Source: Miscanthus floridulus | Lineage: Eukaryota > Streptophyta > Magnoliopsida > Poales > Poaceae | Direction of reading: 5' to 3' | Assembly: GCF_019320115.1 (NCBI RefSeq) | Contig: NC_089583.1 | Span: forward strand, 82,539,928-82,603,927 | DNA: 64,000 nt | Shown: positions 19,403-58,012 of the stretch, one piece after another | Position numbering within the stretch: position 1 is the first letter of the stretch | How the letters are laid out: the number at the start of each line of letters is the position of its first letter | The notes under the pieces: model-generated | Seen by the model: the letters and a program-made list of their open reading frames with translations, nothing else | Told to the model about the DNA's origin: nothing | Database searches by the model: none | Translations under genes and position numbers: made by a program

Positions 19403-21046
19403 TCAAGCAGTGTACAGGCGGGCCGGGAGCTTGGGCTCGACGACGGCCTGGAGCGGGAACTTGCGCGGCGTGGATAGGCCGAAGACTTCCTCCATGCTCA
19501 GCTCTTCCTTCGTCATGCCATCCGGTAGCCTCCACGCAAACCCGTGCAGCAGGTTGACGAGGATCACCTGGATCACCTTCAGCCCGAGGCTGTAACCGGG
19601 GCACATCCGTCGGCCGGAACCGAATGGGAGCAGCTCGAAGTCCTGGCCCTTGACGTCGATTTTGCTCCCGACGAACCGCTCCGGCCGGAACTCCTCGGGC
19701 GCCTCCCACAAGCGCGGGTCGCGGCTGATGGTCCACGCGTTGATGAGCACGCGCGTGCCCGCGGGGATGTCGTATCCGCCCACGGACGTGTCCTCGCGAG
19801 ACAAGCGCGGCGACAGCAGGGGGACGACCATATGCAAGCGCATGGTCTCCTTGACGATGGCGTCCATGTACGGGAGGTGAGGGATGTCCTTCTCCGTGAC
19901 CCAGCGGTCGCGGCCGATGACGCTGTCCAGCTCCTCGGTGGCCTTGGCGAAGACGTCGGGATTCTTCAGGAGCTCTGAGATGGCCCACTCGACGATTACC
20001 GCGGCGCTCTCTGTGCCCCCGGCGACGAGATCCTGTGCCATCGAATCCAAGCATGTAGGAATGCTGAGCACTTTTGTTACGGATCAGCAATTCAGCATTA
20101 GGATTTTTCGGGTACAGAGACAATAAACCTGAGTGAAGGCTTTAACGCTGTCTCGAGTGAGCTTGACGTCGAGGCTGGGATCGTCGGCGAGCTGAAGCAG
20201 CCTGTCGACCATGTCCTGCGGCACGAAGGCGTCTCCCTCGCGCAGACGCCGCCCGTTGTGCTCCACCACCACGTTCTCCATGAATTGGTTGAACATCCTG
20301 CCCACCCTCTTCATCCTCCTGACGTAGCCCTGCAGGTCCAGCCAGGACAGCCAAGGGATCCAGTCCCCGATGTTGAGCACGCCGTTGAGCAAGAACAGCT
20401 CGTCAAGCATCCACCTGAACTCCTTCCACGTTGTCACGGAGCCCCCGCCACTGGCGACCACCTCCTTGTCCACGCACTTCCTGCCCAGAACCATGCGGGT
20501 GATGATGTTCAGGCTCATCGTGGACAGGCACTCCTTGAGCGGAACGACCTGCCCCGCCGTCCCGTGCAGGGCGCGCAGCAGCGCGTGCACCTCCTCCCGG
20601 CGAACGTGCTCGAAGGACTCTAGCCGCCTCGCGCTGAAGAGCTCGTCCGCGCAGATCTTGCGCGCCTGCCGCCAGTAGGCGCCGTAGGGGCTCCAGGCGA
20701 TGTTAGAGTAGTTGTAGGTCGTGTACTTGCCCGCCGCCATTTTCGGCCGGTCGATGAACACCGAGTCGTGGGTCTTGAGGAAGAACTTGGCCATGTCGAC
20801 GGACGACGCGATGACGACGGGGAAGGAGCCGAACTGCACGCGCATCAGCGGGCCGTGGCGCTTGGACAGCGCGTCGAGGGAGCGGTGCGGGAGCGCGCCG
20901 AGGAGGTTGAAGTTGCCGATGATCGGCCACGGCTTGGGGCCCGGCAGGCTGTTGCACGGCCGGCGCCTGCGTGCGTGGACAACTCCGAGGTACAGGACGG
21001 TGGTGAGCACTACGGCGAAAACGGCCGCCCCTGCTGATAGCTCCAT
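19403..21046 (-). CDS. Cytochrome P450, CYP71 clan, CYP92-like, two exons
   Basis: Exon 1 is 21046-20129 (306 codons) and exon 2 is 20032-19403. The 96-bp intron is phase 0 with GT/AG ends, giving 515 residues, normal for A-type plant P450s. The start is the ATG encoding MELSAGAAV; upstream codons in frame lack an ATG. A hydrophobic N-terminal anchor (residues 6-23) predicts ER membrane attachment. Visible motifs: proline hinge LPGPKPWPIIGN (34-45), C-helix WRQARK (125-130), I-helix AGGTES (310-315), ExxR as ETMR (368-371), FRPERF (421-426) and haem loop FGSGRRMCPG with ligand Cys450. The hydrophobic stretch after the haem Cys (YSLGLKVIQ) resembles CYP92 proteins. Some grass CYP92C members make the homoterpenes DMNT/TMTT, but the substrate cannot be read here. 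No frameshift or stop is present, so it is likely functional. A broken second copy lies at 56377-58012. Confidence 0.92.
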
Positions 21047-21564
21047 GTGGAGACTGGAGAGGATAGATGTTGTGACGGCCTGAGGTGATAACTTCAGCAC
21101 CGTGCTTCAAAGATGAGACCACCGTGCTTATTGGTATTAGATTGTTGGGGAGGAGGGCAGCTGGAGAGGAAAATGAGGACAGCTTTGTTGGAGTTTGGAA
21201 TGCCACTATGCCAGCTTTTAGTTCTTGACGACTTCAGCTGACACGAATATTTTACGATAACGCAGAGTTGACTCGATTTTCTTAAGTTCCTGTACATTGA
21301 ATTCAGTGCTAGTATCTTCTTGTTGGATTAGGTGTCGAAGATTATTTAAGGGTGTCCTCAACAACTTGCACGAATCGCTAGCTCACATGGCCTGGTGGAG
21401 AACTTCTCACAGCTAGACTAAAGAGTGGACAACTTTTCGTGCGACAATCGTCGTCTCGCCTCGTCGGTCCGCCCCCAGCAATCCCCGCCTGCTTTCACCT
21501 CGCTTCCCCTGTGCGATAGCTGGCCCAGAAAAGGAAACCGCCATCCCGTTGCTCCACCGCGATC
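21047..21564. promoter_or_regulatory. P450 upstream region
   Basis: This 0.5-kb stretch separates the P450 start from the Mutator-like terminus and should hold its promoter, transcribed leftwards. AT-rich candidates on the minus strand are near 21245-21255 (TAAAATATT) and 21338-21346 (TTAAATAA); neither is decisive. The same sequence precedes the second copy at 58013-58529. The transposon terminus only about 520 bp upstream could influence expression (inference). Confidence 0.4.
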
Positions 21565-30583: not shown

Positions 30584-33500
30584 TGTCGCACCCAATTTTG
30601 CAAAGCAAAACCAAGTACTCATATATGTGCGCCCAGGATGTCCAAACACACATATGTCACAAATTGCAGTAGTATCAAAGTAAAGTACTTATTACATCGC
30701 ATATCTCATCATAAAGTTAAATAAAAAGTTTGCTCGAAAGCAATATTATTACAAACACAGCGGAAAAACTAGCCCAACTGCCACAGGGACTCCAACTGGT
30801 GAACGTCTTCCTAGTAGTCCTGGACATCCTCCGGAAACTCTTCATATCCATTATCTGTTACCCATCCGGGATTTTCATTTGATGTAAAGCAAGTGTAAGC
30901 TCACCATGCTTAGCAAGTATAACAAAGGGATCTATGAGGCTCAAATAGGCTTGACACTGTTTGACTGCGGTTTGCAATTTTAGTTGATCAATTTTTAGCA
31001 ACCTGAATTACTACTTTAATGAACAGTCCCAATTCCCAAGTGGTATTAAAGTATCATCCAGCTTTGTCTCAATTCCCAACCATCCATCATCCATAGTAAC
31101 CACTAATCTCGAAGGATCTAGACCGCTCGTATCCGTGAGCACGGCTGTTATAACAGGTTAATTATTTCTGCAGAAATTGTACATCTTTACCCACCGAGCC
31201 GTGATTCCCAATGCCGGGGTTCGCGAGACCCACTACACCTCTTCCTAGGAAGTGTGGCAGAGTTTCACTATGAAACCCTTAGCTAGTTGCACTAACAAAT
31301 CATAGCTACAAAGGAATGGCACACTGTGGGCATCGCAGCACGGTGCACACCCTAACAGAAAAAGGAAGATACCCTCTTACCTCTTACTAGAGCTACAGAC
31401 GAGCTAGTACAAACTAGATAATAGGTTAAAGTCAGAGCCATTTGACACTCAGGGTTGTACGGTCCCTCCTGGTTGCCGCTTCAGGATAAAGTCCTTATGG
31501 AGAGGCACTAGAGTACTCAACCCCGTACTCCAGCCCCCTATCTGTTGCTAAAAAGCTCCATTTTATCACATTGCATATAGTCTTTAAATATGTTTAACAA
31601 TTACTTCATGTTAAGCGCTGCAGGCATCTATCCCAAAATGCCTACCCAATAAACCCAGGTATCAAGGATATGTGGTACAATGAATCATCTAGGTAGAGTC
31701 CTCAAAGGCAATTCAAATTAAACTCATGCATGAATGTAAGTGGTAGTAGTTCATAGGTAACAAGGGGCCTTTGGTACACTTGCCTTCCTCAAAGTCATCC
31801 TGGGAGTACTGCTGATCCTGCTGGGGGTCCTCAGTCACCTTGAATGGCTCACCCTCTAATCGTGATCCAATCATCAATCAAGCATCATTCCAATCATTAC
31901 ATGCATACAAGATAGAACTCTATTAGAACAGTACACCAAATAGTGAAAACATATGTTGAAAAGCTTACAGATCTGTTCTACGCATTTCTACGAACACATG
32001 AGCAAAAGAATCACTCAAATCGGACTTAAAACGTGAAAGTTATGCATGAAATAAGATGTAATGGCAATTCTGTAAATAAACTAACCTATTTTCGGATTAA
32101 AATAATTAAAAAACTAAATTTAAATGAAATTTGGACCGGGCTTACTATTTCTGGAAACTTCAGGGACTTGAATGAATAAAAGCAGGACTAAATAAAAATT
32201 AGTTTGAACTGGACTGGACCGTGGGTTGATTTCTAGGAAAAAGCGGGGGCTTCTCTGCAAAACGCGCTCGGTTGACTGGGGTTTGACCCGATGGCTGACT
32301 GGCTGCTGACTCATCAACACGCGGTGGCTATTCATTGGGCGTGGTGCACCACGCGGGCGTGGGCGCGCTGACGTGGGCGCTGACGCGGCCACGGTGGACT
32401 GAGTCCACGGTCCGCGGTGGACCGAACCGGTACCAGCTTATCTGGACCGTTCCTTGATGATCGGACGGCGCAGGGTGAGATCCGGATGGTGGCTCGCCGG
32501 GGAAGAAAGAAAGGCTGGCGGCGCCATGGCCGGTGCGCCAGGGACCTTGGGCTATGGCTTCCTAGGGCGCCAAAACGAAATCTGAGGGCACGGGAAGGTG
32601 GAGGGGCTCACCATGAGTCGCCTAGAGGGGAACGCGGCGTCCGGGAAGGCTCCGAGGCTAGTCGTCGACGGCGGCCGCGAGCTGGAGAGAGAAGAGGCGC
32701 GCGGGTGAGGGTGTAGCCGGGCAAAACAACGCCAAAATGCAAAATGGGATGTACCTATGGGCGCGGGAAGATCCGGTGATGCTTTGGGTGGCCTTGGCGT
32801 CGGCGTTCGCTGCTCGGAAGGGGGAGGCTCTCACCGGCGGCAGTGGCTCTCGGTAGCGGGCAAAGGTGGGGAGAGAAGGCGGGGTTGGCTCGGGGTTTTA
32901 TAGGCCGGGTGCTGTGTGGAATAAGGAAGGAGAGCAAGTGGATTCGGTCACCTACCATGCGGGGGCGACGGCGGTGGCCTTCCCTGCATGGCCGCGCCAT
33001 CGGCGGCTGAAGAAAGGAAAACGCCGGGGGAAGAAAGAAAGCTCGGGGAAGAAGAAAGGAAAGAAGGAAAGGGCGCTGACCGGTGGGGCCGGAGCGCAGC
33101 GAGAGAGAAAGAAAGAAGGCAATGCGCTCGCGGGTGAAGCCAAGCAAGCCGCAGCGGCGTGCCGTCGCGCGAAGCGGGCCACAGCGAAGCAGCAGCTGGG
33201 CCACCGAGTTGGTGCGCGCGCGCGGGTGGCCAGCTGGGCCACATGGGGTGCGGGCCAGCGTGCAGTGCGGGCCGGCGTGACAGGCCGCCGAGACAGGCCA
33301 GCGGGAGGAGGAGGGGGAAGAGGGCCGGGCTAGCTGGGCCAGAAAGTGTCTTTCTCCCCTTTTTTTTCAAATCAAATGTTTATCAAATTCTATTTTCTCC
33401 ATTTTCATTTTTAAACCAAATTCAAATAAGTTTTGAATACAAATTTCAATTCATCTAGCCCTACACTCAATCAAAACCCATATGACTCGGCATGAATGCA

Positions 33501-33636
33501 ACAAACAAGTTTCTAAACTTATAGTTTATTTTATTTATTCAATATTTATTATTTGGCCTAAGTTAAAAATACCTAGAAAATGTAATAAATGCTAAGAATT
33601 AATTGCTAATTTGTGGTAAAAATTTTAGGTGTTACA
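30584..33636 (-). repeat. 3' LTR (left copy) of the chromodomain Gypsy element
   Basis: It runs from TGTCGCACCC to TGTTACA. The outer two-thirds is AT-balanced; 32220-33330 is strongly GC-rich with purine runs (gaaagaaagaa), and several long but non-conserved ORFs there are compositional shadows. A TATA box (CTATAAAA, minus strand) lies at 32896-32903. Confidence 0.93.
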
Positions 33637-33660: not shown

Positions 33661-36600
33661 TCATCCTCGAGATTTGGATGGTTCAAAGAGATTGGGATAG
33701 TCAGTTCTCAGATCTTCCTCTCTTTCCCACGTTGCCTCATCCACTGAGTGTCTGTTCCACTGAACCTTGCACATTCTTATTATTTTGCTCCTTGTGATTC
33801 TCTCCGCTATTTCCAGGATTCTCACTGGATACTCTTTGTATGATAGATCCCCTCAGATATCCAGTTCTTCCAAGGGTAGTTGTTCCTCAGGTACTCTCAA
33901 ACATTTCTTAAGTTGTGACACATGGAAAACATCATGAACACCTAAGAGCTGCTCTGGTAACTCTAACTGGTAAGCAACTTCTCCTCTCCTGTTGATGATC
34001 TTGAATGGTCCCACATACCTGGGTGACAACTTTCCCTTAGTATGGAATCTCTTTACTCCTTTCATAGGTGAAACTTTGAGATAGACAAAATCACCAATTT
34101 CAAATGCCAAATCTCTTCTCCTTGTGTCCGCATAGCTTTTCTGTCGGGACTGTGCAACCTTTAGGTTTTGCCTAATTGTTTGCACTTGTTTTTCTGCCAG
34201 TTGCAAAACATTTGGTCCAAAGACTTGGCTTTCCCCCGTTTGATTCCAAAACAATGGTGTTCTGCACTTTCTGCCATACAATGCCTCAAACGGTGCCATT
34301 TTAAGACTCTTTTGGTAGCTATTATTGTAGGAGAATTCGGCATAAGGTAAACTCTTATCCCAACTTGTCCCATACTATAGAGCACAAGCTCTTAGCATAT
34401 TCTCTAAGATCTAATTTGTCCTTTCGGTCTGTCCATCTGTTTGAGGATGGTAAGCTAAGCTGAAGTTCAACTTCGTATCCATTGACTCATGCAATTTCTG
34501 CCAAAAATGTGATGTGAACTATGTACCCCTATCCGAAACAATCTTCTTTGGTACACCATGTAAACATACAATCCTTTCCATATACAACTCTGCTAACTTT
34601 GCACTCGAATAAGTTACCTTGACCGGAATGAAATGGGCCACTTTTGTCAGTCGGTCAACAATCACCTAGATAGAGTCAAATCCTCTGTGTGTACGGGGTA
34701 ATCCAACTATAAAGTCCATTCCAACTTCTTCCCATTTCCACTCGGGTATCCTCATAGGCTGTAGTAAACCTGCTGGCCTCTGATGTTCTGCTTTCACTCT
34801 TTGGCACGTGTCACATATAGCCACATGTTCTACTACGTCTCTCTTCAGTCCATACCACCAGTACCTCTCTTTAAGATCAAGATACATTTTAGTACTTCCT
34901 GGGTGTATGGAATAGGCTGAGTCATGAGCTTCCCTCAAGATAGACTCCCTAATAGATTTTACTTCTGGCACACAAATCCTTTTACCGAACCATACTGTCC
35001 CTTGATCATCCATATGGAATCCTAGGGCTTTATCAATCACTATACGCTCTGCAATATCCTTGATCCTCTCATCACCCATCTATCCTTTATGAATCTCTTG
35101 TTCCAGAGTGGATTCTACCTCTAACTCCATGGTGTTGGCCACAATACCCAAATTCAAGTATTTGAACTCCTCACACAACTCTTTAGGTAGTTGAGTTGTA
35201 TAGGCCATGTTCACATAACTCCTTCTACTCAAGGCATCTGCTACAACGTTAGCCTTTCCCGGGTGATAGTGAATATCCAAATCATAATCCTTGATTAACT
35301 CAAGCCATCTTTGTTGCCTCAGATTTAGATCTGACTATGTGAATATATACTTTAGACTCTTATGGTCCGTATAAATCTCACACTTATGGCCAATCAGGTA
35401 GTGCCTCCATATCTTAAGAGCATGCACCACAGCTGCCAATTCCAGATCATGAGTCGGATAATTTAGCTCATGTTTTCTTAGTTGTCTAGATGCGTAGGCA
35501 ACAACTCTGCCTTCTTGCATAAGAACACCTCCTAGACCTTGCCGTGAGGCATCACAGTAGATAGAGAAACTTTTGGTGAGATTAGGTAAGATGAGCACTA
35601 GAGCAGAAGTCAGTCTCTTCTTCAACTCCTCAAAACTGTCCTGGCATTGTTTAGTCCATACAAATTTGGCATTCTTCTCCAACAACGCAGTCATGGGCTT
35701 GGCTAACTTAGAGAATCCCTCAATGAACCTCCTATAATACCCAGCCATACCTAGAAAACTCCAAATCTCACTAACATCCTTAGGTGGCTTCCAACTCAAC
35801 ACATCTCTAACCTTCTTGGGATCTACTGCTACTCCTCCATTAGAGATTATGTGACCAAGGAAAGATACTTCTTTTAACCAGAACTCACATTTGCTGAACT
35901 TGGCATAAAGTTGATGTTCTCTAAGCTTTTGCAACACCAATCTCAAATGCCCTTCATGTTCTTCTTCATTCTTAGAATACACTAGTATGTCATCAATGAA
36001 CACGACGACAAACTTATCAAGGTACTCCATGAATACTTTGTTCATCAAATACATGAAGTAGGCAGGTGCATTAGTCAGACCAAAAGACATGACTGTGAAC
36101 TCATACAGTCCATAGCGGGTCACAAAGGTGGTCTTGGGGATGTCAGTACACCTTATCCTCAACTGATGGTATCTAGATCGAAGATCAATCTTGGAAAACA
36201 CACAAGCCCCTTTCAATTGGTCAAATAGGTCATCAATTCTAGGCAATGGGTACTTGTTCTTAATTGTGACCTCATTAAGTGACCTGTAGTCTATGCACAT
36301 CCTTTGTGTACCATCCTTCTTTTCTACAAACAGTACTGGTGCACCCCATGGTGATGAACTAGGTAGAACATAACCCTTATCTAGCAATTCCCTTAGTTGT
36401 TTCTTAAGTTCTGCTAATTCATTCACTCCCATTCTATAGGGTCTCTTAGCTATGGGTGTAGTTCCAGGTAAAAGTTCAATTATAAACTCGATGTCTCGGT
36501 CAGGTGGCATACCTGGCAATTCCTCGGGAAAGACATCCGGGTACTCATTTGTTATCCTTATATCTTCTAAGGTTGTGCCCTCCAACTGATTAACCCGACA

Positions 36601-37059
36601 GATTTCTATGGCAGACTGAGTTGCCACAAACACCACTTCTTCTCCAGTTGAAGTGATAAGATTCACCGAGCTATTACCACAATTAATAACTGCTTTCTGC
36701 AACCTTAGCCAATCCATACCCAAGATGACATCAATACCGGTGGAATTTATGACTACAAGATTTGCTTGAAATTCTACCCCCCTTATGCTGAGACTAGCAG
36801 CTAAGCATATCCACTCTGCTTTCATTACCCCACCAGGTGAGCTTACTAACATGTGTTTCTTCATAACACTTACTAGAATACCATGCTTCTTTATGAATGT
36901 ATATGTTATGAAGGAATGCGAAGCACCAGAATCAAAAAGTACTATAGCTGAGTTTGAGTTGACTGGAAATGTACCGATCACCACATCCGGTGCCTCCTGA
37001 GCTGTTTCAGCAGTAACATGGTTCACCTTTCCCCGAACGTAGTTCTGCTGTGAGTTAGT
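33661..37059 (-). pseudogene. Gypsy pol (protease, RT, RNase H, integrase, chromodomain), interrupted
   Basis: A single minus-strand frame runs to the TGA at 33661-33663. In order: aspartic protease DSGAS (about 36920-36933), RT finger '[14 protein letters not shown]', RT catalytic FIDD (about 35990-36001) and RNase H '[11 protein letters not shown]' (about 35560). Integrase follows with its zinc part (H...H, CDTC; about 34950-34810) and catalytic regions 'VGMDFIVGLPR' and 'SDRG'. A C-terminal chromodomain (about 33670-33840) has 'CKVQWNRHS', 'ATWEREEDL'. In-frame stops lie at 35335, 35080, 34666, 34519, 34411, 34375 (all TAG) and 33853 (TGA), with no frameshift across the block. The chromodomain marks it as a chromovirus; such domains can steer integration to marked chromatin (family knowledge). 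Confidence 0.93.
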
Positions 37060-38072
37060 CTTCTTGGGGCATCTATTAGAGTAATGTCCCAGCTCTCCAC
37101 AATTGAAGCACTTGTTGTCATTAACTGCATTTGGCGCTTTTGGTGCGCCATTCCTCTACGAAGCATTGGGGGCATTATTCCTCACTGGTACATTGTTGGG
37201 TTGCTGCTGGCGCTGAGCTGGTGCCTTGTACTGCTGTTGCTGCTGCTGTGCACGCTGCTGCTGCTGGTTGTGGTTGAGACCTGTCTGACCTTGATAGCGC
37301 TGCTGAGGTTGAGTTTGTTGAGGGTTGGTACGGAAGCGAGAGTTGCTCCCAGATTGCTGTCCTTGAAATTTCTCTTCTTGTCCTCCATCTGGCGGCGCTT
37401 GTTCTCAATCACTAAAGCTTTGTCCACCAGCTGCTGGAAGTTAGCAAAGGTATGGGACAACAGCTGGTACTGGAGACCATCATTCAAGCCCTCCATAAAT
37501 AGCTCCTGCCTCTTTCCATCCTCGTCTACCTCAGTAGGTGCATACCGCGACAATTGTATATACTTGTCACGATATTCAGCAACAGTCATGCCCCCCTGCT
37601 TGAGAGCCAAGAACTCCTTCTTCTTCAGCTTCATCAGTCCTGCAGGCACGTGATGAGTGCGAAAGGCACTGTGGAACTCAGCCCAAGTGATGGGATTAGC
37701 TTCGGTGCGGCCGAAGCGGAATGAGTCCCACCAATCCTGTGCAGCTCCCTGCAACTATCCAGAAGCATATAAAACTTTCTCCCTATCATCACATTGGGCA
37801 ATCTCCAGTTGCCTCTCTATGGCACGTAGCCAGTCATCAGCTTGGAGTGGATCGACAGAGTGCTTGAATACAGGTGGGTGTCCTTTCAGAAACTCTCCCC
37901 TCTTATCCCTGACATGAGGGGGGGCATTTCCATTCCCTTGCCCCATGTTCTGCATGTTCTGGGCCATCTGCTGAAGCAACTGGGTCTGCATCATCATTAG
38001 CTGCTCCATGGAGACTGGGGGTGGTGGTGGCGGTTCCTCGCCTCCCTAGTTGTTTCTCTTGGTGTTCACCAT
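37060..38072 (-). pseudogene. Gypsy gag with CCHC zinc knuckle, interrupted
   Basis: The start is the ATG at 38072 (MVNTKRNN), with TAG codons at 38046-38048 and 37755-37757. The capsid-like retrotransposon gag region includes 'DPLQADDWLRAIERQ' and 'WDSFRFG...TWAEFHSAFR'. A Gln-rich linker follows. The zinc knuckle [14 protein letters not shown] (37069-37110) sits in the pol frame, and one TAG lies at 37156-37158. The frame change between capsid and knuckle fits a one-base deletion near 37366-37374. Gag would form the virus-like particle. Confidence 0.9.
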
Positions 38073-38819
38073 CTGTAGAGGCATCATATAAGTCTCACAT
38101 GTCTAAGCATATAACTCTTACAAGATACTGGTGTAACAAGAGTAGGTGTAGACAAGAGATATATGTAGGGTATGCAAGAAGATATTTGTTCTGAATTTTT
38201 TTTTCCAGCGAGTTGGATAGCAGCAGTGCTGTAAAACGAGCATATCTCAGTCTCTGTTTATCATATGATTGCGTAGCATACCTTTCTGGAAAGCTTATGA
38301 AATTCTCTACAACTTTCGTTTAGAACACTTTTTCAGATTCCAACATTTACTTAGTCAAAGTCAGACGATAAGAAGTACTGTTCCGGAATCCTGACAGCAC
38401 AGAAACCTCGACTTACAACAGTTGTATCTCACAATTTATAATAGCTATTGAGGTGATTCCAGAGCCAGAAGAAAGATGTTGAAGTCTACTTATCTCCATA
38501 AAAATTTCATGACCTTTGAGTATCTAGATTATGAGATATGAACTGATAAAGACAGACTGTTCCGAAAGATACAGAATGGACAGCATGATAAAACGAAACC
38601 CAACTATTTATTCATAATATTCCTAAACCTTAACCTTAACTAAATGATCGTGGACATGCCCACAAGTCATCACAATCATATCAAAGATCAAAATCAAACA
38701 TTATTCATAATGATAAACATCCAACCATGCAACTAACACTTGTCCAACCATTAAAAGAAAGAAACTAAATACTCTCTCGCGTAGCTACGCGTGCTTATTA
38801 CATATTTTTTAAGACTCTC
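38073..38819 (-). other. Spacer between the accessory ORF and gag
   Basis: About 750 bp without an ORF. Downstream translation of gag would need a separate transcript, splicing or reinitiation; no internal promoter stands out. Confidence 0.5.
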
Positions 38820-39875
38820 CTATGGGTACGGGTCGATGGTGGTGCTGGTGCTGGGGTCTCGAGACTCTCCTCTGGTCCTCGGGGGTGACTGAGCGGGTAC
38901 TCCTGAATCTTCCACATCTGGACCTCCTAGCTGTTGCTTTAGTGTAGCGTTCTCACGAGCTAGCTGCATGTAGGCCCTCCCCATGACATCGAGCTCATCT
39001 AGGGCCTGATCCAAGTCAGTGTGGGTCTCAGCCAAGCACAACAGGGTGGGCCTCAGCCTTAGGTTCGCCTCTCCAAGTGGTGTAGCGATGTTGCACGTAG
39101 ACTGTCCGCTCCGACGGCGGGGAAGATAGCGGTCATCCTCCCAGGTGATGTCGTCGAAGTGACGGTCGCGGTTGACCATCAACGCCTATCGAGCTGCATC
39201 CCTGATGATGGCCGCATGTGTGAGCCGTGCAGTGGTGGCGCGGTGGATGTAGCGCACCCGAGTCCCCTCTCGGATGTACACTTCTGTCTCCCAGAAGCCG
39301 GTGTAGTCGGGGTGGGTCCAATGCTCCGTCCTATACTAAACAGTGCCTCCAGGGTGGTAGCGATGCACAAGTGCGAGAAGCCTAGGGTGGTAGTAGCCAT
39401 CACCCTCCAAGTCGTAGTGGATCTCCGCAGTCCATCCCTGAGCCAACGGTGCATTGTGATCATCATCATTGTCATCATCCCCATCGTCTCCACCGTCTCC
39501 ATCATCTCCACCGTCTCCACCGTCTCCACCATTACCATCATCACCTCCATCAGAATCATCAGAACCATCTCCATCGTCGGGGTCACTAGCTCCCTCCTGG
39601 CCACCTTGTTCATGCTCCTCCATAGGATCCTCCTCAGAATCCTCGATCTCGATGGGCTCCTCGAACATAGGCACCTCTTCTGTTTCTTCATCCATTGGAT
39701 CCTCCAGCAAGTCCTCTAGAGGTTCCCCCATGGGCACCTCCACAGGTGGTTCCTCCTCCTGGTTCCTCAGCGCTTCCACCAGATGTGCTGGGACACGCTT
39801 GCCCAAAGTGAACCTGGTTCTCCTGGTGGGCATCGGAATGGTCCTCTTGCGCGCGGTCAGCTTGGTACGGACCAT
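38820..39875 (-). pseudogene. Accessory ORF before gag with histone H3-like N-terminus and acidic domain
   Basis: The frame opens with ATG at 39875 and reads to 38820 (about 351 codons), interrupted only by two TAGs (39336-39338 and 39186-39188) with no frameshift. Residues 1-10 are MVRTKLTARK; the H3 tail is (M)ARTKQTARK, so R2, T3, K4, T6, A7, R8 and K9 align. Residues 11-35 are basic. Residues 40-150 are Glu/Pro- then Asp/Gly-rich and strongly acidic. After the first stop come a Trp/Tyr-rich part ('HWTHPDYTGFWETEVY') and a helical part ('LDQALDELDVMGRAYMQLAR'). It lies between the primer site and gag, where most chromoviruses have no gene. Function is unknown; chromatin contact is inference. 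Confidence 0.68.
39460..39560. repeat. Microsatellite-like Asp/Gly coding tract
   Basis: Repeats of 'ccaccgtctcc' and 'catcatc' encode the Asp/Gly-rich run of the accessory ORF on the minus strand. Replication slippage could change its length between copies. Confidence 0.7.
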
Positions 39876-40042
39876 CTATAAGAATGAAAAGGTTGAGTAT
39901 TAGAACAAAATAATTTTTGGCAATAGATAAAGAACAGAATATAAGCAAAAATTTTATAGCAAATTAAAGTAATAAAATAAAGATAATGTGATCCTAGAAA
40001 CATCCATTTCTAACTAGGTTGTTCGTCCTACAGTCGGTTATA

Positions 40043-40054
40043 GCTCTGATACCA
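40043..40054 (-). promoter_or_regulatory. Primer binding site, initiator tRNA-Met type
   Basis: The minus strand reads TGGTATCAGAGC three bases inside the 5' LTR. This is the standard site complementary to the 3' end of plant initiator tRNA-Met. Confidence 0.93.
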
Positions 40055-40057
40055 ATT

Positions 40058-43000
40058 TGTCGCACCCAATTTTGCAAAGCAAAACCAAGTACTCATATAT
40101 GTGCGCCTAGGATGCCCAAACACACATATGTCACAAATTGCAGTAGTATCAAAGTAAAGTACTTATTACATCGCATATCTCATCATAAAGTTAAATACAA
40201 AGTTTGCTCGAAGGCAATATTATTACAAACACAGCGAAAAAACTAGCCCAACTGCCATAGGGACTCCAACTGGTGAACGTCTTCCTAGTAGTCCTGGACA
40301 TCCTCCGGAAACTCTTCATATCCATTATCTGTTACCCATCCGGGATTTTCATTTGATGTAAAGCAAGTGTAAGCTCACCATGCTTAGCAAGTATAACAAA
40401 GGGATCTATGAGGCTCAAATAGGCTTGACACTATTTGACTACGGTTTGCAATTTTAGTTGATCAATTTTTAGCAACCTGAATTACTACTTTAATGAACAG
40501 TCCTAATTCCCAAGTGGTATTAAAGTATCATCCAGCTTTGTCTCAATTCCCAACCATCCATCATCCACAGTAACCACTAATCTCGATGGATCCAGACCGC
40601 TCGTATCCGTGAGCACGGCTATTATAACAGGTTAATTATTTCTGCAGAAATTATACATCTTTACCCACCGAGCCGTGATTCCCAATGCCGGGGTTCGCGA
40701 GACCCACTACACCTCTTCCTAGGAAGTGTGGTAGAGTTTCACTATGAAACCCTTAGCTAGTTGCACTAACAAATCATAGATACAAAGGAATGGCACACGT
40801 GGGCATCGCAGCACGGTGCACACCCTAACAGAAAAAGGAAGATACCCTCTTACCCCTTACTAGAGCTACAGACGAGCTAGTACAAACTAGATAATAGGTT
40901 AAAGTCAGAGCCATTTGACACTCGAGGTTGTACGGTCCCTCCTAGGTTGCCGCTTCAGGATAAAGTCCTTATGGAGAGGCACTAGAGTACTCAACCCCGT
41001 ACTCCAGCCCCCTATCTGTTGCTAAAAAGCTCCATTTTATCACATTGCATATAGTCTTTAAATATGTTTAACAATTACTTCATGTTAAGCGCTGCAGCAT
41101 CTATCCCAAAATGCCTACCCAATAAACCCAGGTATCAAGGATATGTGGTACAATGAATCATCTAGGTAGAGTCCTTAAAGGCAATTCAAATTAAACTCAT
41201 GCATGAATGTAAGTGGTAGTAGTTCATAGGTAACAAGGAGCCTTTGGTACACTTGCCTTCCTCAAAGTCATCCTAGGAGTACTGCTGATCTTGCTGGGGG
41301 TCCTCAGTCACCTCGAATGGCTCACCCTCTAATCGTGATCCAATCATCAATCAAGCATCATTCCAATCATTACATGCATACAAGATAGAACTCTATTAGA
41401 ACAGTACACCAAACAGTGAAAACATATGTTGAAAAGCTTACAGATCTGTTCTACGCATTTCTATGAACACATGAGCGAAAGAATCACTCAAATCGGACTT
41501 AAAACGTGAAAGTTATGCATGAAATAAGATGTAATGGCAATTCTGTAAATAAACTAACCTATTTTCGGATTAAAATAATTAAAAAACTAAATTTAAATGA
41601 AATCTGGACCGGGCTTACTATTTCTGGAAACTTCAGGGACTTGAATGAATAAAAGCAGGACTAAATAAAAATTAGTTTGAACTGGACTGGACCGCGGGTT
41701 GATTTCTGGAAAAAGCGGGGGCTTTTCTGCAAAACGCGCTTGGTTGACTGGGGTTTGACCCGACGGCTGACCGGCTGCTGACTCATCGACACACGGTGGC
41801 TGTTCATTGGGCGCGGTGCACCACGCGGGCATGGGCGCACTGACGTGGGCGCTGACGCGGCCACGGTGGACTGAGTCCACGGTCCGCGGTGGACCGAACC
41901 GGTACCAGCTAATCTGGACCGTTCCTTGATGATCGGACGGCGCAGGGTGAGATCCAGACGGTGGCTCGCCGGGGAAGAAAGAAAGGCCGGCGGCGCCATG
42001 GCCGGTGCGCCGGGACCTTGGGCTATGGCTTCCTAGGGCGCCAAAATGAAATCTGAGGGCACGGGAAGGTGGAGGGGCTCACCGTGAGTCGCCTGGAGGG
42101 GAACGCGGCGTCCGGGAAGGCTCCGAGGCTGGTCGTCGATGGCGGCCGTGAGCTGGAGAGAGAAGAGGCACGCGGGTGAGGGTGTAGCCGGGCAAAACAA
42201 CGCCAAAATGCGAAAGTGGGATGTACCTACGGGCGTGGGAAGATCCGGTGATGCTTCGGGTGGCCTTGGCGTCGGCGTTCGCGCTCGGAAGGGGGAGGCT
42301 CTCACCGGCGGCGGTGGCTCTCGGTAGCGGGCAAAGGTGGGGAGAGAAGGCGGGGTCGGCTCGGGGTTTTATAGGCCGGGTGGTGCGTGGAATAAGGAAG
42401 GGGAGCAAGTGGATTCGGTCACCTACCATGCGGGGGCGACGGCGGTGGCCTTCCCTACATGGCCGCGCCATCAACGGCCGAAGAAAGGAAAACGCCGGGG
42501 GAAGAAAGAAAGCTCGGGGAAGAAGAAAGGAAAGAAGGAAAGGGCGCTGACCGGTGGGGCCGGAGCGCAGCGAGAGAGAAAGAAAGAAGGCAATGCGCTC
42601 GCGGGTGAAGCCAAGCAGGCCGTAGCGGCGTGCCGTCGCGCGAAGCAGCAGCTGGGCCACCGAGTTGGTGCGCGCGCACGGGTGGCCAGCTGGGCCACGT
42701 GGGGTGCGGGCCAGCGTGCGGTGCGGGCCGGCGTGATATGCCGCCGAGACAGGCCAGCGGGAGGAGGAGGGGGAAGAGGGCCGGGCTAGCTGGGCCAGAA
42801 AGTGTCTTTCTCCCCTTTTTTTCAAATCAAATGTTTATCAAATTCTATTTTCTCCATTTTCATTTTTAAACCAAGTTCAAATAAGTTTTGAATACAAATT
42901 TCAATTCATCTAGCCCTACACTCAATCAAAACCCATATGACTCGGCATGAATGCAACAAACAAGTTTCTAAACTTATAGTTTATTTTATTTATTCAATAT

Positions 43001-43091
43001 TTATTATTTGGCCTAAGTTAAAAATACCTAGAAAATGTAATAAATGCTAAGAATTAATTGCTAATTTGTGGTAAAAATTTTGGGTGTTACA
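40058..43091 (-). repeat. 5' LTR (right copy) of the chromodomain Gypsy element
   Basis: This is collinear with 30584-33636, with scattered substitutions and a few indels (for example the purine-rich segment near 42640 is shorter). It ends TGTTACA at 43091. It is the promoter-bearing LTR for leftward transcription. Confidence 0.93.
42367..42374 (-). promoter_or_regulatory. TATA box in the 5' LTR
   Basis: The minus strand reads GGCCTATAAAACCCCG. It is conserved in both LTRs (32896-32903 in the other) and lies in the GC-rich part, as expected for a core promoter. Confidence 0.7.
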
Positions 43092-55740: not shown

Positions 55741-56376
55741 GTGTCTACATTCGAGCAGCTACAGAGCAAGTTCGAGCATCTAGCCACTATCTCTGAACAG
55801 CTGAAGGGTGCCTCCGAGCAATTGGAAAAGAAATCTGAACAGCTCAGAAGTGTATCCAAACAGAAAGCATGTATCTTGGGCCGAGCCTTGGGCAGAAGCC
55901 GGTCTCCGAGGGACCCTGGGTTTATGAACCCGACACTTTTTATAATGACAAGTGTGGTAATTTATATATATAAATTTAGGGGTTATTTTGAATTATCTAT
56001 CGTAATGGCAGAGGTGGGTAATTTTTTTATAAAATTACAATAGATTCAATGACTATTATCAGAGATGATGATTAGAGTCTGTCAAATTAAAGGCTCTGTT
56101 GGGGGCCTCTAATTAGTAATAGTAAGATAAGATAAGGTTTTTTATACTTTTGGATTTCATTTTATAGATTATGGCTAGCGTTTATCAAGATCGCCAAAAT
56201 ATGGGACGTTGTTCGAAAAAATATAGCACAGCACGAGAAACGGAGAAAGCTAGCTGGTCGCCTGGGCTCCAGCCTCCAGGCATCCGAGATATAGGTTGCA
56301 GCGGACAGCGGTAACTCGGCAAACTGGGGCCTCGACAGAACCACCTTGTAACCCAGGCAAATGGGATTCGAGGTCA

Positions 56377-58012
56377 TCAAGCAGTGTACAGGCGGGCCGG
56401 GAGCTTGGGCTCGACGACGGCCTGGAGCGGGAACTTGCGCGGCGTGGATAGGCCGAAGACTTCCTCCATGCTCAGCTCTTCCTTCGTCATGCCATCCGGT
56501 AGCCTCCACGCAAACCCGTGCAGCAGGTTGACGAGGATCACCTGGATCACCTTCAGCCCGAGGCTGTAACCGGGGCACATCCGTCGGCCGGAACCGAATG
56601 GGAGCAGCTCGAAGTCCTGGCCCTTGACGTCGATTTGCTCCCGACGAACCGCTCCGGCCGGAACTCCTCGGGCGCCTCCCCAAGCGCGGGTCGCGGCTGA
56701 TGGTCCACGCGTTGATGAGCACGCGCGTGCCCGCGGGGATGTCGTATCCGCCCACGGACGTGTCCTCGCGAGAGACAAGCGCGGCGACAGCAGGGGGACG
56801 ACCATATGCAAGCGCATGGTCTCTTGACGATGTGCGTCATGTACGGGAGGTGAGGGATGGACTTCTCCGTGACACAGCGTCGCGGCCGATGACGCTGTCC
56901 AGCTCCTACGGTGGCCTTGGCGAAGACGTCGGATTCTTCAGGAGCTCTGAGATGGCCCACTCGACGATTACCGCGGGCGCTCTCGTGCCCCCGGGACGAG
57001 ATCCTGTGCCATCGAATCCAAGCATGTAGGAATGCTGAGCACTTTTGTTACGGATCAGCAATTCAGCATTAGGATTTTTCGGGTACAGAGACAATAAACC
57101 TGAGTGAAGGCTTTAACGCTGTCTCGAGTGAGCTTGACGTCGAGGCTGGGATCGTCGGCGAGCTGAAGCAGCCTGTCGACCATGTCCTGCGGCACGAAGG
57201 CGTCTCCCTCGCGCAGACGCCGCCCGTTGTGCTCCACCACCACGTTCTCCATGAATTGGTTGAACATCCTGCCCACCCTCTTCATCCTCCTGACGTAGCC
57301 CTGCAGGTCCAGCCAGGACAGCCAAGGGATCCAGTCCCCGATGTTGAGCACGCCGTTGAGCAAGAACAGCTCGTCAAGCATCCACCTGAACTCCTTCCAC
57401 GTTGTCACGGAGCCCCCGCCACTGGCGACCACCTCCTTGTCCACGCACTTCCTGCCCAGAACCATGCGGGTGATGATGTTCAGGCTCATCGTGGACAGGC
57501 ACTCCTTGAGCGGAACGACCTGCCCCGCCGTCCCGTGCAGGGCGCGCAGCAGCGCGTGCACCTCCTCCCGGCGAACGTGCTCGAAGGACTCTAGCCGCCT
57601 CGCGCTGAAGAGCTCGTCCGCGCAGATCTTGCGCGCCTGCCGCCAGTAGGCGCCGTAGGGGCTCCAGGCGATGTTAGAGTAGTTGTAGGTCGTGTACTTG
57701 CCCGCCGCCATTTTCGGCCGGTCGATGAACACCGAGTCGTGGGTCTTGAGGAAGAACTTGGCCATGTCGACGGACGACGCGATGACGACGGGGAAGGAGC
57801 CGAACTGCACGCGCATCAGCGGGCCGTGGCGCTTGGACAGCGCGTCGAGGGAGTGGTGCGAGCGCGCCGAGGAGGTTGAAGTTGCCGATGATCGGCCACG
57901 GCTTGGGGCCCGGCAGGCTGTTGCACGGCCGCGCTGCGTGCGTGGACAACTCCGAGGTACAGGACGGTGAGTGCACTACGGCGAAAACGGCCGCCCCTGC
58001 TGATAGCTCCAT
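56377..58012 (-). pseudogene. Cytochrome P450 copy 2 (CYP92-like), frameshifted
   Basis: This is collinear with 19403-21046. The same start (58012), intron (about 57099-57004) and stop (56377-56379) are present. Exon 1 codons for residues about 70-306 are identical in reading to copy 1. Small indels occur near 57855, 57930 and 57968 in exon 1, and near 56636, 56680, 56775, 56822, 56833, 56878, 56907, 56931, 56976 and 56995 in exon 2. They break the frame before and after the I-helix and around the ExxR region, though the haem-binding part is open again. As written it cannot make the enzyme. Indels without matching substitutions, in two GC-rich patches, make sequence or consensus error a serious alternative. 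Confidence 0.85.

Follow-up and report, generated by a model that had tools for sequence, protein, structure and literature searches.

Why does the accessory protein of a grass retrotransposon begin like the tail of histone H3? The question arises from a 64,000-nucleotide stretch of contig NC_089583.1 of Miscanthus floridulus (hereafter, the window), for which a sequence-only reading had reported that the pre-gag open reading frame (ORF) of a chromodomain Gypsy element starts with MVRTKLTARKR, placing equivalents of the modifiable H3 lysines K4 and K9, with their immediate contexts, in register with H3. Conceivably, such a start is a coincidence in a brief basic stretch, a relic of a captured exon, a nuclear import signal or a genuine mimic of the H3 tail.

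Results

The accessory ORF of the window copy

The reported start is confirmed: the accessory ORF opens with MVRTKLTARKRTIPMPTRRTRFTLGKR at position 39875, that is, with MVRTKLTARKR over 39875..39846 of the minus strand. Its ATG lies 182 nt past the end of the 5' LTR, and the frame is a separate sense ORF between the primer binding site (PBS) and the gag capsid segment (Table 1). Pfam domains on the minus strand of the window follow the order gag, protease (PR), reverse transcriptase (RT), RNase H and integrase, with a C-terminal chromodomain that scores 0.3 bits under the Pfam cut-off and still aligns with those of families C and D introduced below. We take the PBS to be of the initiator-Met tRNA type. 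From the chromodomain, the LTRs of about 3 kb and the 5' ORF, we infer that this Ty3/gypsy element is of the Tekay type. By position, strand and the available text of published descriptions, the ORF is the 5' extra ORF (aORF or ORF0) of grass Tekay elements (PMC11728184, PMC3485330), and the earlier view that no such system had been described was too strong.

Table 1. Features of the element in the window (positions count from the first letter of the window)
Feature	Position	Strand	Details
5' LTR	40058..43091	-	96.9% identity to 3' LTR (72 mismatches / 3,055 columns)
Primer binding site	40043..40054	-	TGGTATCAGAGC
T-rich stretch ending in TAG	39876..39900	-	abuts the ATG; candidate 3' splice acceptor (putative)
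Accessory ORF (5' aORF/ORF0)	39336..39875	-	179 aa to first in-frame stop; middle acidic, low-complexity
H3-tail-like N-terminus	39810..39875	-	Met + H3 positions 1-21; K4-equivalent codon 39861-39863, K9-equivalent 39846-39848
Remainder of accessory frame after first stop	38816..39335	-	interrupted by second stop; frame end ~38,816
gag capsid segment	37182..37754	-	Pfam Retrotrans_gag, E 1.2e-17
Zinc knuckle, protease, reverse transcriptase, RNase H	35335..37155	-	Pfam
Integrase pieces	33853..35079	-	Pfam: H2C2 zinc binding 34666-35079; C-terminal SH3-like 33853-34374
Chromodomain	33661..33852	-	Pfam Chromo, E 2.1e-5; 24.8 bits vs cut-off 25.1
3' LTR	30584..33636	-	LTR pair alignment

The window copy is a weak and broken example of a strong pattern. 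Its frame carries two in-frame stops, and copies elsewhere in the genome are open for about 353 codons. It is identical to H3 at 7 of residues 1-10 and at 9 of the first 20, with Ala-bearing copies of its family reaching 8/10. Pfam assigned no family to the ORF, a histone fold included, protein database searches with it as the query matched no named histone, and scanning just the window for the pattern, with at most three mismatches allowed, gave two matches, a number reached in 10 of 100 shuffles and thus no better than shuffled sequence.

A second copy of the ORF, 36,972 bp away (L002), is 100% identical. The window also holds two near-identical minus-strand gene copies (19403-21106 and 56162-57975) about 36.7 kb apart, both presumably encoding cytochrome P450. 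Together, the paired genes and the identical ORF suggest either that some 37 kb were duplicated in tandem or that the assembly holds a duplicate.

The H3-like start recurs in diverged families

Across the genome, the pattern ARTKxTARK occurs at 2,535 sites, 2,509 of which (99%) have an ATG directly in front, and the reversed pattern at none; the host-H3 stretch GKAPRKQLAT is found at 35 sites. Besides the window's own family (A), at least three further families (B, C and D), diverged in gag-pol, have accessory proteins starting with MARTK(Q/L/R)TARKS(T/A)GGRAP..LA. The first 30 ARTKxTARK loci (L009-L038, all on contig C1) comprise 13 of family B (MARTKQTARKSTGGRAPRRPLALRE), 8 of family C (MARTKQTARKSTGGRAPSRQLAPR) and 9 of family D (MARTK[LR]TARKSAGGRAP..RLAPRE), and no host H3 gene is among them. 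In six 10-kb loci of families B, C and D compared with the window element, the tail lies upstream of a gag capsid segment of 35-39% identity (seen in five of the six). PR-RT-RNase H is 56-59% identical in the four loci holding most of it and 38% in a fifth, which contains just a short end of the protease. Three loci of families C and D extend further, matching the integrase pieces at 50-70% and the chromodomain at 46-56%, and a PBS was found in four of the six.

In aligned copies, 17 of the first 20 H3 residues are matched in families B and C, 14 in D and 9-10 in A. Families B-D thus carry an N-terminal H3 tail and family A a partial one; similarity to H3 ends near residue 21, and near residue 11 in family A. 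Searched against PDB, a family C ORF matched true histone H3 at E 3e-5 over query residues 1-24, and a database of 5.8 billion proteins returned histone H3 entries at E 1.8e-3. Pfam found no histone match, and hence no histone fold, either for the window ORF or for a single ORF taken from each of families A-D. Judged by these alignments and counts, the H3-like motif of the group is real rather than fortuitous. ARTKLTARK and ARTKQTARKSTGGR are candidate N-terminal peptides of the tails, and their R14 form distinguishes them from H3. Relatives in protein databases provide more tails, for example P0110 from the grass Aristida adscensionis.

The window's family has alanine, not valine, after the start Met

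Relatives of the window ORF start with MARTKLTARKRTIVMPT or similar. Family A forms two subfamilies in this genome, ARTKLTARKRTIP and ARTKQTPRKRTIL, which differ at positions 6, 8 and 14. We read 60 nt from each of 40 copies, hand-picked across 150 scored places out of 3,821 candidates. In protein numbering, Met1, Ala2, Thr4, Lys5, Thr7 and Lys10 are invariant, so that the K4 and K9 equivalents are both present in 40/40; Arg3 is found in 35 copies and Arg9 in 36. At position 6, 18 copies have Leu, 21 Gln and one Lys; at position 8, 17 have Ala, 19 Pro and four another residue, which amounts to loss of the A7 alanine in 23/40. At the S10 position, all 40 copies have Arg.

Among the copies read, Val2 is confined to the window copy and L002, and the 40 other sampled copies all have Ala. 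The former argument that removal of Met before Val would expose VRTK, close to the free end of H3, was therefore built on a private substitution, and should give way to the family's own terminus, which is exactly ARTK.

The tail is conserved beyond the rest of the protein

Between families, we compared one copy of each over codons 2-22 (the tail) and over the remaining protein. Amino-acid identity is 90% in the tail versus 45% in the rest for B-C, 76 versus 37% for B-D, 76 versus 51% for C-D, and 62 versus 22-32% (gaps allowed) for A with the other families; two copies from within family D show no contrast (90 versus 87%). In five of the six family pairs, with one copy each, no other 21-column window of the alignment is as identical as the tail, with 19 identities versus at most 18 in the best other window for B-C, 16 versus 12 for B-D, 10 versus 6 for A-B, 10 versus 8 for A-C and 9 versus 8 for A-D. 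The exception is C-D, where the tail scores 16 and 24 windows score better, the C-terminal helix being more conserved between these two families. Synonymous sites of the tail differ considerably between families (pS 0.39-0.83), and nonsynonymous differences (codons 2-22) amount to pN 0.07-0.17 among B, C and D and 0.31-0.39 for A versus the others; for B-C, pS is 0.56 and pN 0.07. Because synonymous sites have diverged and the first residues have been kept, the constraint acts on the peptide and not on the nucleotides.

Copies within families retain the tail as well. From family B, 30 copies were found through the non-tail part of the protein (the best-ranked of 133 scored, from 12,187 candidates): in 29, the tail is in frame and both K4 and K9 are present, with a stop codon inside the tail of two, and the remaining copy is out of frame. 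Both lysines are kept in 20/20 family C copies hand-picked from 142 scored (13,603 candidates).

Database searches yielded 110 non-histone proteins (13 of 123 were dropped), and we counted a protein as tailed if it had five or more matches out of 9, a rule that slightly favours K4 and K9. Among the 41 tailed relatives (37 distinct tails), which include P0111 and P0120, perhaps not retrotransposon proteins, the K9 position is Lys in 41 and the K4 position in 39 (Arg in two), versus a single Lys each at K14 and K18. Relatives, like copies, are not independent samples, and a Fisher value on these counts should not be taken for a probability. The other 69 counted proteins, which include some weak non-relatives and many fragments, have no visible tail. 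Six long relatives (P0040, P0041, P0046, P0054, P0063 and P0072) lack a tail and start in the databases at an internal Met (MPTLLWRV), which may reflect a gene-caller artefact, an upstream frame break or real loss. P0111, at its N-terminus, and P0116, near its C-terminus, carry H3-tail-like stretches on unrelated sequences and are perhaps separate H3-tail chimeras.

A putative intron ends at the start codon

The trinucleotide YAG directly precedes the ATG in 62/62 distinct tailed loci (51 CAG, 11 TAG; L004-L074). In nine loci of families B-D, the leader from PBS to ATG measures 752-790 nt and contains 18-34 upstream ATGs; in family A, it measures 178-179 nt with 1-3 upstream ATGs. The YAG at the ATG and the many upstream ATGs of the B-D leaders make it likely that a leader intron ends at the accessory start codon. 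Of the candidate splice donors, none is conserved.

Protein architecture beyond the tail

A structure predicted for relative P0053, one of the two tailed relatives with Arg at K4, comprises a disordered tail, a domain with the fold of a double-stranded RNA-binding domain (dsRBD) and a helix of 138 residues. No dsRBD family was found in a Pfam scan of families A-D; the corresponding stretch is missing from family D and not supported in family A. In this respect the accessory proteins of A-D differ from the plant RNA-silencing dsRBD proteins DCL4, DRB4, DRB7.2 and HYL1.

Discussion

Our comparisons indicate that the accessory N-terminus is an H3-tail mimic under selection, which bears out the claim that K4 and K9 with their contexts sit in register with H3 on this protein. 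The sequence-only reading had also named what would speak against it, namely intact family members lacking the motif, or free variation of residues 2-10 alongside conservation downstream; the opposite was found.

How might a transposon profit from an H3 tail? In real H3, K4 and K9 are the lysines that mark active and silenced chromatin. We envision that residues 1-21 of H3 were captured, probably a single time, to form the beginning of the 5' accessory protein in Tekay-type elements of grasses, and that selection on the peptide retained the tail as the remainder of the protein turned over. As a small residue follows the initiator Met, the latter would be removed, and the mature protein would expose a free Ala-Arg-Thr-Lys end. 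The stem that bears this end would be a long helix, probably a coiled coil, and itself end acidic; some families would have a dsRNA-binding-type domain as well. The K9 (and K4) equivalents may be modified as in real H3, or the tail may be read unmodified; either way it would engage host readers or writers of H3K9 or H3K4, so that H3K9- and RNA-directed silencing would be diverted away from the element or its RNA. Candidate partners are SUVH4-6, CMT3, ADCP1, SHH1 and LDL1-type demethylases. Such a bait with an anti-silencing outcome is, to our mind, the most likely reading of the tail, and we would put its chances as even. Because real H3 is very abundant, simple titration would be implausible unless it were local or multivalent.

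The substitutions tolerated in the tail may be informative about the partner. ADCP1 contacts R2, K4 and K9me2 but not A7, R8 or S10 (PMC6318295), and the positions changed in family A include A7 and S10; the pattern fits a partner that would read the tail end, R2, K4 and K9. ADCP1 is reported not to bind unmodified H3 (PMC6318295), so as a partner it would need the tail to be methylated first. In family A, loss of the A7 alanine (23/40) and Arg at S10 (40/40) may weaken recognition by K9 methyltransferases.

Next in rank comes tethering, a possible but unlikely alternative to the bait, whereby a K9-like lysine, once methylated by the host, would anchor the element's integration complex or protein-RNA complex to readers of H3K9me, thereby directing integration or nuclear retention to heterochromatin. 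The element encodes a chromodomain integrase, the helical stem could provide multivalency, and contacts of the ADCP1 type (R2, K4, K9me2; PMC6318295) suit a tether as well. Readers would, however, also be contested by real nucleosomes, the connection between accessory protein and integrase is putative, and type II chromodomains lack the methyl-lysine cage residues, according to the available text of PMC6317226. The same text lists extra ORFs and describes type II chromodomains as having no identified partner. A bolder proposal, which we hold to be improbable, is that the elements bring along a piece of the histone code, namely a methylatable H3 tail presented many times over on an oligomeric RNA-binding protein. 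This tail would supply the ligand that the type II chromodomain of the element's integrase lacks, or it would lure H3K9 readers and link dsRNA binding with suppressed RNA-directed silencing. If either were true, transposon-encoded H3-tail starts would far outnumber host H3 genes in the genome.

Might the tail merely carry charge? H3 tails are basic, and grass 5'aORF products are predicted to be nuclear in the available text of PMC11728184, so the peptide could be a nuclear localization signal or a basic nucleic-acid-binding segment whose likeness to a modifiable tail is incidental. A role in charge only would, however, let Lys and Arg exchange freely at every lysine, whereas K4 and K9 are Lys in 80/82 cells versus 2/82 for K14 and K18 (the rows are not independent and the inclusion rule slightly favours K4 and K9), and the tail sits at the extreme N-terminus in 2,509 of the 2,535 sites. 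Import alone fails to explain this pattern, and we consider it quite doubtful. That a captured H3 exon merely persists as a neutral relic is very improbable: copies within families are young, and the YAG at every start examined hints at a splice acceptor, so that youth or a nucleotide constraint (splice site or RNA element) might mimic selection, but the first residues are retained between families at a tail pS of 0.39-0.83 and divergence is greater downstream. Chance, to which the window copy by itself would lend some colour (9/20 against H3, no named histone, no excess over shuffles in the loose scan), is rejected for the group as hardly credible given the 14-17/20 matches of related families, the 2,509 start-positioned sites against no reversed ones and the E value of 3e-5 to true H3, and for family A would require that A be unrelated to B-D.

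A selected, start-positioned H3 tail bears on what the accessory ORF of grass Tekay elements does and on the partner of type II chromodomains. If the bait reading is correct, it would constitute a transposon counterpart of viral histone mimicry, aimed at the very pathway that silences transposons. More practically, in grasses, any antibody or annotation that relies on the H3 tail may catch transposon proteins. In their abstract, Steinbauerova et al. (2011) reportedly describe part of the chromovirus extra ORFs as similar in part to the histone H3 gene and suggest gene capture. The resemblance to H3 is thus probably in print already, and as the ORF itself is known, novelty is limited to its reading as a selected N-terminal H3-tail mimic with a tail-specific pattern; our literature searches found no paper on a conserved tail, on K4/K9 selection or on a mimicry function.

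Histone H3 itself is like the accessory proteins in up to 17 of its first 20 residues, in the Ala beside Met and in the register of K4 and K9, and unlike them in that they have K14 and K18 replaced and no histone fold. NS1 of influenza (at its C-terminus), the ARKT automethylation site of G9a and the SNAG domains that dock in LSD1 are viral and cellular histone mimics. The published ORF0 of Tekay/Del elements (Retrosat-2, RIRE3, RIRE8, Sorsat2, ZMsat2) shares the position between PBS and gag, the strand and the LTRs of about 3 kb, and ORF0/5'aORF products are described as fast-evolving and are modelled with a long helix besides disordered segments, as here (PMC3485330, PMC11728184). The 5'aORF is reported from grasses, and one without sequence similarity from sunflower (PMC11728184). 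These accounts differ from ours in that the H3 tail is undescribed in the available text of both papers; the word 'histone' is absent from that of PMC3485330, where ORF0 products are regarded as possible hydrolases. As in NS1, G9a and SNAG proteins, a short tail-like peptide is carried by a non-histone protein, which in those cases engages the H3 machinery; the accessory tail differs from theirs in being longer, exactly N-terminal and present at thousands of transposon sites, and in that its interaction with this machinery is putative.
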